Source: Alphaproteobacteria bacterium
GTDB taxonomy: Bacteria > Pseudomonadota > Alphaproteobacteria > Micropepsales > Micropepsaceae
Length of the DNA stretch: 64,000 bases
Direction of reading: 5' to 3'
Assembly: GCA_947475445.1 (NCBI GenBank)
Contig: CANJLC010000006.1
Location: 1-64,000 of the forward strand
Shown: one piece after another, positions 26,500-30,009 of the stretch
Numbering within the stretch: position 1 is the stretch's first letter
Layout of the letters: every line of letters starts with the position of its first letter
Made by a program: the position numbers and the translations under genes
Notes under the pieces: model-generated
Seen by the model: the letters and a program-made list of their open reading frames with translations, nothing else
Databases searched by the model: none
Told to the model about the DNA's origin: nothing

Positions 26500-26775
26500 C
26501 TACTCTTCGCCAAACTTGGCCTCGATCAATGCCAGCATGGCCCGCAGGGCCAGGTGGGCGTCGGCGCCTTCCGCTTCCAGGCCCACTTCGCAGCCCTGGC
26601 TGGCGGCCAGCATCATCAGGCCCATGATGGAACGGGCATTCACCCGCTGGCCGTCCTTGATGAAAGTGATTTCCGAGTCAAAGCGCGCGGCGGCTTCCAC
26701 CACCTTGGCGCTGGCCCGCGCATGCAGGCCCCTTTTGTTGGTGATGCGGGCGGTGGCTTCCAGCTTGCCGAACAT
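26500..26775 (-). CDS. ptsH: HPr phosphocarrier protein (nitrogen-type PTS)
   Basis: Small phosphocarrier that takes phosphate from EI on His18 (RGLHARAS) and passes it to EIIA proteins. Ser49 in VNARSIMGLMML matches the HPr-kinase target site, which fits the hprK gene nearby. It is 91 residues. No sugar permease is encoded here, so the system should be regulatory rather than a sugar importer. It follows the EIIA gene by 14 nt on the same strand. Confidence 0.96.
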   Translation of the reverse strand: MFGKLEATARITNKRGLHARASAKVVEAAARFDSEITFIKDGQRVNARSIMGLMMLAASQGCEVGLEAEGADAHLALRAMLALIEAKFGEE

Positions 26776-26789
26776 CCCGCCCGCGCTCC

Positions 26790-27185
26790 CTATGCCAGGT
26801 CGGCGGAACCGGCGCGCATGTATTTGCGCCCCGCGTCGATGGCTTCTTTCACGGCCTGGTCCAGCGGCAGCTTGGCGCGGATATCAATCAGCTTGATCAG
26901 GCTGGGCAGGTTGATGCCGGCCAGCACTTCGATCTTGCCGCGCTCCAGCAAGGTGAGCGCCAGGTTGCAGGGCGTGCCGCCGAACATGTCGGTGGCGATC
27001 ACCACGCCATTGCCCATGTCCACCGATTGGGCCGCCGCCGCGATCTCGCGCTGGCGCCGCTCGATATCATCTTCGGGACCGATGCAGACGGCGCGCAGAT
27101 GCGTCTGGGGGCCGACCATATGTTCCATGGCGGAGATGAACTCCTGCGCCAGGCGGCCATGTGTTACGAGTACCAAACCGATCAT
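26790..27185 (-). CDS. PTS EIIA domain protein, mannose family (EIIA-Man-like)
   Basis: The 131-residue protein begins MIGLVLVTHGRLA, with the phospho-accepting His9, and has the DMFGGTPCNLALTLL motif of EIIA-Man. In alphaproteobacteria this stand-alone EIIA works with HPr and the PTS-Ntr pathway in regulation of carbon and stress functions. The start at 27185 gives the family N-terminus; in-frame upstream sequence belongs to hprK on the other frame. It sits between hprK and ptsH. Confidence 0.94.
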   Translation of the reverse strand: MIGLVLVTHGRLAQEFISAMEHMVGPQTHLRAVCIGPEDDIERRQREIAAAAQSVDMGNGVVIATDMFGGTPCNLALTLLERGKIEVLAGINLPSLIKLIDIRAKLPLDQAVKEAIDAGRKYMRAGSADLA

Positions 27186-27261
27186 CTGTGTTCCACTTGA
27201 AGGCGCGGAAATTAGGGGGGTTCGCGCTGGGGTGAAAGCCTTATGTGGGGATTGCCCCCCA

Positions 27262-27738
27262 CTATTCCAAGTTAAAAGTGTCGCGGAAGGCGCCCCGCGC
27301 AAAGGCGTCCAGCGCCGCCCGGATCCGCGCCGGAGCCGAGGGTTCTGCGCCATTGACCATGATCTGGGGCACCGGCTGCATGCCGGACAGGGCTTTTGGC
27401 GCGGCATAGAATTCCGGCTCCGGCAGCCTGGGTTGCCGCTTGCGCCCCAGCCGCACCGTCATGGCAATGGCAGCGCTCTGGATATGCGCAACGCGGATGA
27501 TGCCGATGCCGCGCAATTCCAGCAGGCCGGCAATGGTGCGCGGCGGGCGGGCATGCAGTTTGCCACCCCGCACGAACAGCTCGCAGCGGTCATCCGCCAG
27601 AAGCTGTGCCCCGCCGTCCAGCAGGCGCAGCGCCAGGTCGGATTTTCCCGCATGGCTGGGACCGAGCAGCAAGACGCCGCGGCCGCGAATCGCGACGCAG
27701 CTGGCATGGACGTTCACCCGGATGCTGGAGCCTGTCAT
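27262..27738 (-). CDS. hprK: HPr kinase/phosphorylase, short alphaproteobacterial form
   Basis: The 158-residue product contains only the catalytic domain, as is usual in alphaproteobacteria. The P-loop is GPSHAGKS (residues 26-33), followed by LLADDRCEL and IAGLLELRGIGI, the HprK signature. It phosphorylates a serine on HPr. ATG at 27738 lies 10 nt after the chvG stop, consistent with cotranscription chvI-chvG-hprK-EIIA-ptsH. Frame extensions upstream are chvG shadows. Confidence 0.93.
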   Translation of the reverse strand: MTGSSIRVNVHASCVAIRGRGVLLLGPSHAGKSDLALRLLDGGAQLLADDRCELFVRGGKLHARPPRTIAGLLELRGIGIIRVAHIQSAAIAMTVRLGRKRQPRLPEPEFYAAPKALSGMQPVPQIMVNGAEPSAPARIRAALDAFARGAFRDTFNLE

Positions 27739-27748
27739 TGCATGGACC

Positions 27749-29302
27749 TCATGGCAGGACCGGAAGCTCCACCACGAAGCGCGCGCCGCCGCCTTCCCTG
27801 TTCTCGGCCCAGATGCGGCCGCCGGCATTCTGGGTGATCTGGCGCGCGATGGAGAGGCCAAGGCCCGAATTGTTGCCGAAATGTGCCGCGGGCCGCTCGG
27901 TGTAGAAGCGCTCGAAAATCGATTCCAGGTTTTCCGCCGGAATGCCGGGGCCCTGGTCTTCCACCGTGACACGCGCCACCAGGTGATGTTTTCGCGCCGT
28001 CACGGTGATGACACCATGCTCGGGGCTGAAGGAGATGGCGTTGTCGATCAGGTTGCGGAAAACCTGGCCCAGCCTTTCGTCATTGCCCAGCACGCGGATG
28101 CCGGGCGGCAATTCATCCTTCAGCGTGACGGTCTGTGTCTTGGAGATTTCGGTGAAATCGTAAATTTCCACAATCACCTTGAGCAGGTGGGACAATTCGA
28201 TGGCGCCGCGCGCCTCGCGCGACAATTCGGCGTCCAGCCGCGAGGCGTCGGAAATATCGGTGATCAGCCGGTCGATGCGCTTCACGTCGGCGCGCACCAG
28301 CGCCATCAGCTTGTCGCGCGAGGCTTCATCGGGCGCGCGCACCAGAATTTCCATGGCGCTGGCCAGCGAGGTGAGGGGGTTTTTCAGTTCATGCGCCACG
28401 TCGGCGGCAAAGGTTTCAATGGCGCCGATGCGGTCATACATGGCCGCGGTCATTTCTTTCAGCGAATCCGCCAGGTCGCCGATCTCGTCGTTGCGGTCGG
28501 GCAGGCCGGGAATGGCGTCGCGCCCGCCAAGGCCCTGGCGCACCCGGTCGGCCGCCGCCGCCAGCTTGCGCACCGGCTCGGCAATGGTGCCCGCAAGATA
28601 CAGCGAAGACAGCAGCATCACGGCAAAGGCCACGAGACAGACTTCGATCAGCGTGAAACGTTCCTGGCGCAAGATGTCGTCAATGTCGCCGCCCTCGGTG
28701 GAGACGAACAGCACGCCATAGATGGCGCGGAAGCGCTGGATCGGCACCGCCACCGACAGCACCAGCTTGTTCTGGTCGTCCACCCGCTCGCCGCTGGCCG
28801 TCTGGCCGGTGAGGGCGACATTCACTTCCTCATAGATGCGTCCGTCATTACCGCCTTCGGAATAGGGCGCCAGCTTGACGAAGGGCCGCACGCCCATCAC
28901 GCCGTCATAGATGCGGTTGCTCCATTCCTTGAAGCGCGTCCAGCTGTCCAGCGCCGGCAAATCCGCCACCTGCACCATGTTGCGCGGCAGCAGCAGGCGG
29001 GTATCCACCACCAGCTTGCCGTCGGGCAGGTAGAGCCGCGCCCGCAGGCGCGAGGGCGCGATGAGCTGGCCCAGCAGCGGCTCGGCATTTTTCACATTCA
29101 GCTTGTGGGTGCTGGGTTCGGTGGCATATTCGGCCAGCGTGCCGGCCACGATGGCGGCCTGTTCCTGCACCCCGGTCAGCCGTTCCGCCACCAGGCCGCG
29201 GCCGGAGGATTGCACCGTGATCACGCCCACCGTCAGCACCAAGAGGGCAATGGTGTTGAAGGCGATGATGCGCCAGGTGAGCGTGGAGAAGTGCGGGAAG
29301 AT
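27749..29302 (-). CDS. chvG: Sensor histidine kinase ChvG, apparent ATC start
   Basis: Membrane kinase of the ChvG/ChvI (ExoS) envelope- and acid-sensing system. It has two membrane segments around a periplasmic domain, HAMP, the H box ADVAHELKNPL (His304) and an HATPase domain (DNAISFSPEHG, DQGPGIP, GLGLSIA). The first membrane segment (WRIIAFNTIALLVLTVG) begins upstream of the only standard start, TTG at 29242. No ATG/GTG/TTG precedes it before a stop; ATC at 29302 has aaggag 8 nt upstream. From ATC the protein is 517 residues. An assembly error turning ATG to ATC is possible. Confidence 0.85.
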   Translation of the reverse strand: MFPHFSTLTWRIIAFNTIALLVLTVGVITVQSSGRGLVAERLTGVQEQAAIVAGTLAEYATEPSTHKLNVKNAEPLLGQLIAPSRLRARLYLPDGKLVVDTRLLLPRNMVQVADLPALDSWTRFKEWSNRIYDGVMGVRPFVKLAPYSEGGNDGRIYEEVNVALTGQTASGERVDDQNKLVLSVAVPIQRFRAIYGVLFVSTEGGDIDDILRQERFTLIEVCLVAFAVMLLSSLYLAGTIAEPVRKLAAAADRVRQGLGGRDAIPGLPDRNDEIGDLADSLKEMTAAMYDRIGAIETFAADVAHELKNPLTSLASAMEILVRAPDEASRDKLMALVRADVKRIDRLITDISDASRLDAELSREARGAIELSHLLKVIVEIYDFTEISKTQTVTLKDELPPGIRVLGNDERLGQVFRNLIDNAISFSPEHGVITVTARKHHLVARVTVEDQGPGIPAENLESIFERFYTERPAAHFGNNSGLGLSIARQITQNAGGRIWAENREGGGARFVVELPVLP

Positions 29303-29307
29303 GGACG

Positions 29308-30009
29308 CTACTCCTTGTAGCGGTAGCCCACGCCATACAGCGTTTCGATGGCGTCGAAATCGTCGGCCACCACCTTGAATTTCTTGCGCAGCCGCTTGAT
29401 GTGGCTGTCGATGGTGCGGTCATCGACATAGACCTGGTCGTCATAGGCCGCGTCCATCAAACTGTCGCGGCTCTTGACGAAGCCCGGACGCTGCGCCAGC
29501 GCCTGGAGGATCAGGAATTCCGTTACGGTGAGGCGCACCGGCTTGCCGTCCCAGGTGCATTCATGGCGCAGCGGGTCGAGCGCCAGCTTGCCGCGCGTCA
29601 GTGCTTCCTTTTTCTGTTCGCCGGGCGCGAGCGATGCGCCCTTGCCCTCGGCGCGGCGCAAGACGGCGCGCACCCGTTCCAGCAGCAGGCGCTGGGAGAA
29701 GGGCTTGCGGATATAATCATCGGCCCCGGCATTGAGGCCCATCAGCTCGTCAATCTCCTCGTCCTTGGAGGTGAGGAAGATCACGGGCAGGTCGGCGTTG
29801 CTCTGGCGCAACCGGCGCAGGAGTTCGAGCCCGTCCATGCGCGGCATCTTGATGTCCAGCACCGCCAGATCGGGCGGGGTGGCGGTCAGCGCGGTCAAGG
29901 CGGCGGCGGGATCGGAAAAGCTTTTGACGCTATAGCCTTCCTGCTCCAGCAGCATCGTCACCGATGCGAGAATGTTCTTATCGTCGTCAACAAGGGCGAT
30001 TATGGCCAT
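29308..30009 (-). CDS. chvI: Response regulator ChvI (OmpR family)
   Basis: The 233-residue regulator has an N-terminal receiver with acidic pocket VDDDKN and phospho-acceptor Asp52 ([13 protein letters not shown]), switch Thr in FLTSKDE and Lys in YIRKPF, then an OmpR winged-helix domain ([25 protein letters not shown]). It is the partner of the kinase gene that begins 5 nt downstream. ATG at 30009 gives the canonical N-terminus [10 protein letters not shown]. Together they regulate envelope functions in this class. Confidence 0.96.

Follow-up and report, generated by a model that had tools for sequence, protein, structure and literature searches.

In the 64-kb window analyzed here, a stretch of 64,000 nucleotides from an alphaproteobacterium of the family Micropepsaceae, a chvG-type sensor histidine kinase gene lies directly behind a chvI-type response regulator gene, and the locus raises the question of which codon starts the kinase. 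Open from 29419, the chvG frame has TTG 29242 as its earliest ATG, GTG or TTG, at codon 21 when numbered from ATC 29302. An initial annotation of this DNA had found no standard start ahead of that TTG and had pointed to the ATC, placing an AAGGAG motif 8 nt before it and the whole site at the chvI stop. Each of these observations was confirmed on the minus strand (Table 1). The codons after the ATC are TTC CCG CAC TTC, encoding Phe-Pro-His-Phe, and the predicted product has 517 aa from the ATC and 497 aa from TTG 29242. In the window genome chvG sits in a different frame from chvI. Upstream of the ATC, the chvG frame is open into chvI in this genome alone among the eight genomes with a non-standard start described below; the open stretch contains an ATT at 29380, before which no Shine-Dalgarno (SD) sequence was seen by eye. 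Because no standard start gives the conserved N-terminus and because ATC, CTG or ATT recurs at this site in eight genomes, we read chvG as very probably translated from the near-cognate ATC 29302 as a 517-residue kinase. TTG 29242 is then probably an ordinary Leu codon.

Table 1. Positions of the features of the chvI-chvG locus, numbered within the window.
Feature	Coordinates	Strand	Remarks
chvI-type response regulator	29308..30009	-	ATG 30009 picked by eye, end TAG; mechanical ORF reaches 30081
Shine-Dalgarno AAGGAG, final two sense codons (Lys-Glu) of chvI	29311..29316	-	from the sequence
chvI stop TAG	29308..29310	-	5 nt ahead of the proposed chvG start
ATC, proposed chvG start codon	29300..29302	-	CTG or ATT at the equivalent place in relatives (n=7)
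chvG-type sensor histidine kinase	27749..29302	-	517 aa + stop; TM1, sensor domain, HAMP, HisKA, HATPase_c
TTG, earliest in-frame standard start, within TM1	29240..29242	-	not conserved as a start in relatives

The identity of the two proteins was examined using Pfam. On the 517-aa reading, Sensor_TM1, Stimulus_sens_1, HAMP, HisKA and HATPase_c were matched in that order, all above curated cut-offs. The Sensor_TM1 match covered residues 4-58, in agreement with the earlier statement that an ATC start yields 517 residues with a normal N-terminus. The first membrane helix was placed by eye at approximately residues 12-30. The expectation that a TTG start would truncate the N-terminus held for the 20 residues that are dropped, but the loss of the first membrane segment proved to be partial, amounting to about half of the helix. 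The adjacent ORF ending at 29308 contained Response_reg and Trans_reg_C domains (matched on the longer ORF) and encodes an OmpR-class response regulator. The best NCBIfam match of the kinase was the ChvG equivalog NF058527 with 473.6 bits, which is below the cut-off of 740, and the gene is therefore labeled chvG-type; judging by its name, NF058527 is suggested to be a Caulobacter-specific model. Across 18 aligned proteins, 8 of residues 3-12 were invariant, and so was the H-box stretch FAADVAHELKNPLTSL. Directly downstream of chvG, the window encodes a short HprK C-terminal-type protein of 158 aa (27262-27738, minus strand), whose Pfam match covers about half of the model, and beyond it, at 26500-27407 on the same strand, ORFs resembling phosphotransferase-system proteins were noticed by eye.

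Start codons were compared by searching the family for chvG: 82 of 96 genomes matched at an E value of 1e-40 or better. The window's genus had a match in 63 of 69 genomes and the start region was inspected in all 63, one of which (G066) is cut by the contig end; duplicate loci of the same genes (n=12) were skipped. Other genera of the family gave 19 matches, of which four start regions were inspected, and six genomes from other families were added. Outside the genus, a standard codon was present in frame upstream in all ten start regions (four from other genera and six from other families). Within the genus, 37 of the 63 genomes have one or more standard starts no later than codon 5, mostly with a longer N-terminus, and 25 form a subclade in which chvG starts right after chvI. 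Seventeen members of this subclade have a standard start (ATG in 7, GTG in 8 and TTG in 2), with an additional GTG two codons before it in G009. The other eight have a non-standard codon: ATC in the window genome (G000), CTG in G014, G065, G067 and G092, and ATT in G006, G008 and G094. The comparison of this codon in sister genomes, which the initial annotation had recommended, thus found the same site without a standard start in seven relatives, four with CTG and three with ATT.

In all seven CTG/ATT genomes chvG shares the frame of chvI, and the chvI stop (TAG in six, TAA in one) is in frame with the kinase and three codons ahead of the proposed start, which makes any earlier start impossible there. 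The gap between stop and start is 6 nt in these genomes and 5 nt in the window genome. The codons ahead of the Phe codon that follows the proposed start read GCG GCG CTG, GCG GCC CTG, CTC CCG ATT, CCC CCG ATT or AGA GCG ATT, and among those triplets the third codon alone is one base off ATG. Further inside the gene, the earliest ATG, GTG or TTG is found at codon 18, 18, 18, 20, 21, 21, 22 or 27 in the eight genomes; since its position varies, there is no conserved internal start.

AAGGAG was located 8 or 9 nt before the ATC, CTG or ATT in all eight genomes with a non-standard start, with a duplex energy of -7.8 kcal/mol against an assumed 16S tail sequence. The motif was also present in both TTG genomes and in none of the 15 ATG or GTG genomes of the subclade. 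The chvI stop and the chvG start share bases in 11 of those 15, reading TAGTG or TAATG. The GTG relatives L004, L006, L007, L008, L041 and L049 combine the TAGTG overlap with the lack of AAGGAG, and TAATG occurs in five ATG relatives; spaced and overlapping chvI/chvG junctions therefore both occur inside one genus. The start close to the upstream stop is an arrangement found in translationally coupled gene pairs. Local RNA folding around the start, inspected by eye in 14 genomes, displayed no difference between the groups. The combination of a strong SD sequence with a weak start looks like the compensation described for GUG and UUG in PMC5622118, with the qualification that relatedness is a confounder of the association between AAGGAG and a weak start codon. 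According to the same paper, the difference in SD-region conservation by start codon is not significant in alphaproteobacteria (PMC5622118).

A maximum-likelihood tree was constructed from 31 proteins, comprising 27 with start states and four outgroups, with G066 left out. The eight genomes with non-standard starts were split over three places, well-supported branches requiring three changes, and CTG and ATT each formed one clade, of four and three genomes, respectively. In all eight, the start is followed by a Phe codon, at the alignment position where canonical relatives have their standard start; the outgroups G068 and G069 likewise have Phe there. Four changes at this codon are needed with either Phe or a standard start as the ancestral state (counted by hand, with some branches weak), so that three separate losses and one old odd start with repairs fit equally well.

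Selection on chvG was estimated by the Nei-Gojobori dN/dS of 12 pairs, eight including a genome with a non-standard start and four canonical. The former ranged from 0.03 to 0.27, compared with 0.09-0.12 in the four canonical pairs, a difference from which nothing was drawn since most pairs with a non-standard genome are more diverged. Pairs of two non-standard genomes gave 0.03 (G067/G092), 0.16 (G014/G065 and G014/G067), 0.23 (G006/G008), 0.24 (G000/G014) and 0.27 (G006/G094). Judged from these ratios, chvG is under purifying selection and is not decaying; a pseudogene was rejected on the range of 0.03-0.27 over all 12 pairs.

The other genes of the window served as background. Of 48 conserved frames of the window, set against a single contig from G009 and another from G014, 25, chvG included, were conserved more than three codons above their first standard start. 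The other 24 flagged frames comprised 17 genes with ATG at the conserved N-terminus, one frame cut by the window edge and six taken, on visual inspection, as antisense or non-coding. They were handled in a batch of 14 (12 ATG genes and two frames judged antisense) and a batch of 10 (five ATG genes, the window-edge frame and four judged non-coding). Three further frames without any standard codon contain stops in at least one sister. Thus, chvG was the sole gene left without a standard start among the conserved frames of the 64-kb window, a statement about the window and not the whole genome. A general habit of odd starts was rejected, as no other case was found among the window's conserved frames, with 6 of the 24 set aside by eye.

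The infC gene, which classically begins at a non-canonical codon and is named as such in PMC5472188, was sought in 28 genomes and found in 27, G096 being without a match. Its conserved N-terminus carries ATA behind AGGAG in all 27 (L166-L192; the copy of the window genome is L176, G000:C13:10354-10563). No ATG, GTG or TTG lies upstream in frame in 21 of them, and in four of these 21 (G014, G066, G067 and G092) a stop is located two codons ahead of the ATA. A standard codon lies further upstream in the remaining six, so that ATA is the presumed start in those genomes. Since infC carries ATA at its conserved N-terminus, the ribosomes of the genus are expected to tolerate a non-canonical start. 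No column of the IF3 protein separated the eight non-standard genomes from 18 others (G066 left out, G096 without a match), indicating that no IF3 change accompanies the trait, and a relaxed IF3 in the non-standard-start genomes was rejected for this reason. The outgroups G068 (L193) and G069 (L194) contain, besides infC, another, weak match to IF3_N that falls short of the cut-off.

Other explanations of the locus were weighed against a near-cognate start. The ATC is known from a single assembly and is one base away from ATG, which leaves room in this one genome for a sequencing or assembly error that conceals an ordinary ATG start; as an account of the locus we consider this improbable, because seven more genomes are without ATG, GTG or TTG there and have CTG or ATT, in clades of four and three. 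The initial annotation had left a choice between non-canonical initiation and a wrong base, and the seven further genomes of the genus, each with the chvI stop in frame upstream, favor the former. Their other codons rule out sequencing error as the general cause, and the non-standard chvG start looks like a recurrent feature, not explained by sequencing mistakes in general. It is very unlikely that translation begins at TTG 29242 or another internal standard codon and yields a kinase whose first membrane segment is truncated. The TTG is indeed the first standard codon in frame, but the corresponding codon shifts among positions 18, 20, 21, 22 and 27 across the eight genomes, and the invariant residues within 3-12 and the Sensor_TM1 match both lie partly or wholly ahead of it. 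The internal TTG was rejected as a start, its position not being conserved.

A fusion of ChvI and ChvG through stop readthrough or frameshifting is conceivable in the CTG and ATT clades, in which the two genes share a frame and readthrough would join them. The frames differ in the window genome, where a different trick would be needed, the relatives with standard starts need no fusion, and among the seven, six end chvI with TAG and one with TAA. With the frame relation the same in seven genomes and different in the window genome, the fusion was rejected, and we regard it as extremely unlikely. Initiation could also occur one codon later, at the TTC or TTT that aligns with the canonical ATG, GTG or TTG start. 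The Phe codon does hold the place of the canonical start codon in the alignment, and GTC of Streptomyces sigR, with two mismatches, can start according to PMC5472188. TTC and TTT are, however, both two positions off ATG, TTC is an ordinary Phe codon at this place in two outgroups (G068 and G069), and all eight genomes have a better near-cognate codon immediately ahead, which leaves this reading only a slim chance.

For initiation at the near-cognate codon itself, the arrangement of the junction suggests the following mechanism. A ribosome finishing chvI at the TAG would be held by the AAGGAG in the final two chvI codons, and re-initiation 5-6 nt past the chvI stop would put the initiator tRNA on whichever near-cognate codon stands there. 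Initiation from all 64 codons has reportedly been measured in E. coli, in work attributed to Hecht et al. 2017. Re-initiation in E. coli is described in PMC2268962 as depending on features of the initiator tRNA and as being inhibited when IF3 is in excess, an effect that an SD sequence lessens. As a weaker step, the weak codon would keep the kinase below the response regulator, the initial annotation having already suggested low kinase levels, and would make chvG sensitive to IF3; by analogy with known systems, these IF3 and dosage steps are possible, at somewhat less than an even chance. A broader and rather doubtful proposal is that the start is set by its position, past the stop and 8-9 nt from the SD sequence, and that the codon drifts among near-cognates, each of which would set a kinase-to-regulator ratio tunable by IF3; an ancestral non-canonical start may then have been repaired several times.

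Taken at the sequence level, chvG is most likely a further case of a known class, genes with non-canonical start codons, like sigR, infC and rcsD-Hpt. The closest comparison is sigR of Streptomyces, which, according to PMC5472188, uses GTC as its start codon downstream of AGGAGGTG, is repressed by IF3, and loses the proper ratio to its partner when the GTC is replaced by a standard codon. Both are signaling regulators in an operon with a partner, with a start outside ATG, GTG and TTG, a strong SD sequence and conservation in the genus (PMC5472188). They differ in that sigR comes first in its gene pair, with GTC constant across Streptomyces and IF3 control demonstrated (PMC5472188), whereas chvG is the second gene, encodes a membrane kinase and has a start codon that varies by lineage. 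Like chvG, infC has a non-canonical codon behind AGGAG, which is ATA in these genomes; unlike infC, with ATA in 27 of 27, chvG varies among ATC, ATT, CTG, TTG, GTG and ATG. The rcsD-Hpt of Yersinia pestis is likewise a phosphorelay protein with an AUU start and a ribosome-binding site, but, as PMC10191623 describes it, it is a small product from inside a frameshifted gene and does not represent the principal start of a sensor kinase. In domain order and in the neighboring response regulator, the locus resembles ordinary ChvG/ChvI (ExoS/ChvI, BvrS/BvrR) operons, from which it differs because those have standard starts: among 80 loci from named genomes, 78 have an in-frame standard start level with the aligned start or upstream of it, and two have GTG one codon inside. 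Of these 80 loci, 73 are at most 48% identical to the kinase and three align only from beyond residue 12.

Unusual starts in stress and sugar-use genes are reported to be the subject of PMC13068326 and PMC11445065. The literature matches listed, in a search with most subscription journals outside its scope, contained no description of a chvG, exoS or other sensor kinase gene that starts at a non-canonical codon. In PMC5622118, switches to CUG and AUU number 2 and 1 among 61,358 ancestral AUG starts, and 1 and 1 among 5,080 GUG starts, with one switch to CUG among 2,468 UUG starts; by these counts, either kind of switch is very rare.

Tools restricted to ATG, GTG and TTG would remove half of the first membrane helix of the kinase, and would misplace the infC start as well. 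The occurrence of ATC, ATT, CTG, TTG, GTG and ATG at one operon position within a genus constitutes a natural series. It lets one ask how much weight codon identity has at a constant stop, SD sequence and spacing, and also whether the sensor-to-regulator ratio is set by weak starts. By analogy, translation of chvG would yield little kinase in comparison with the chvI product.
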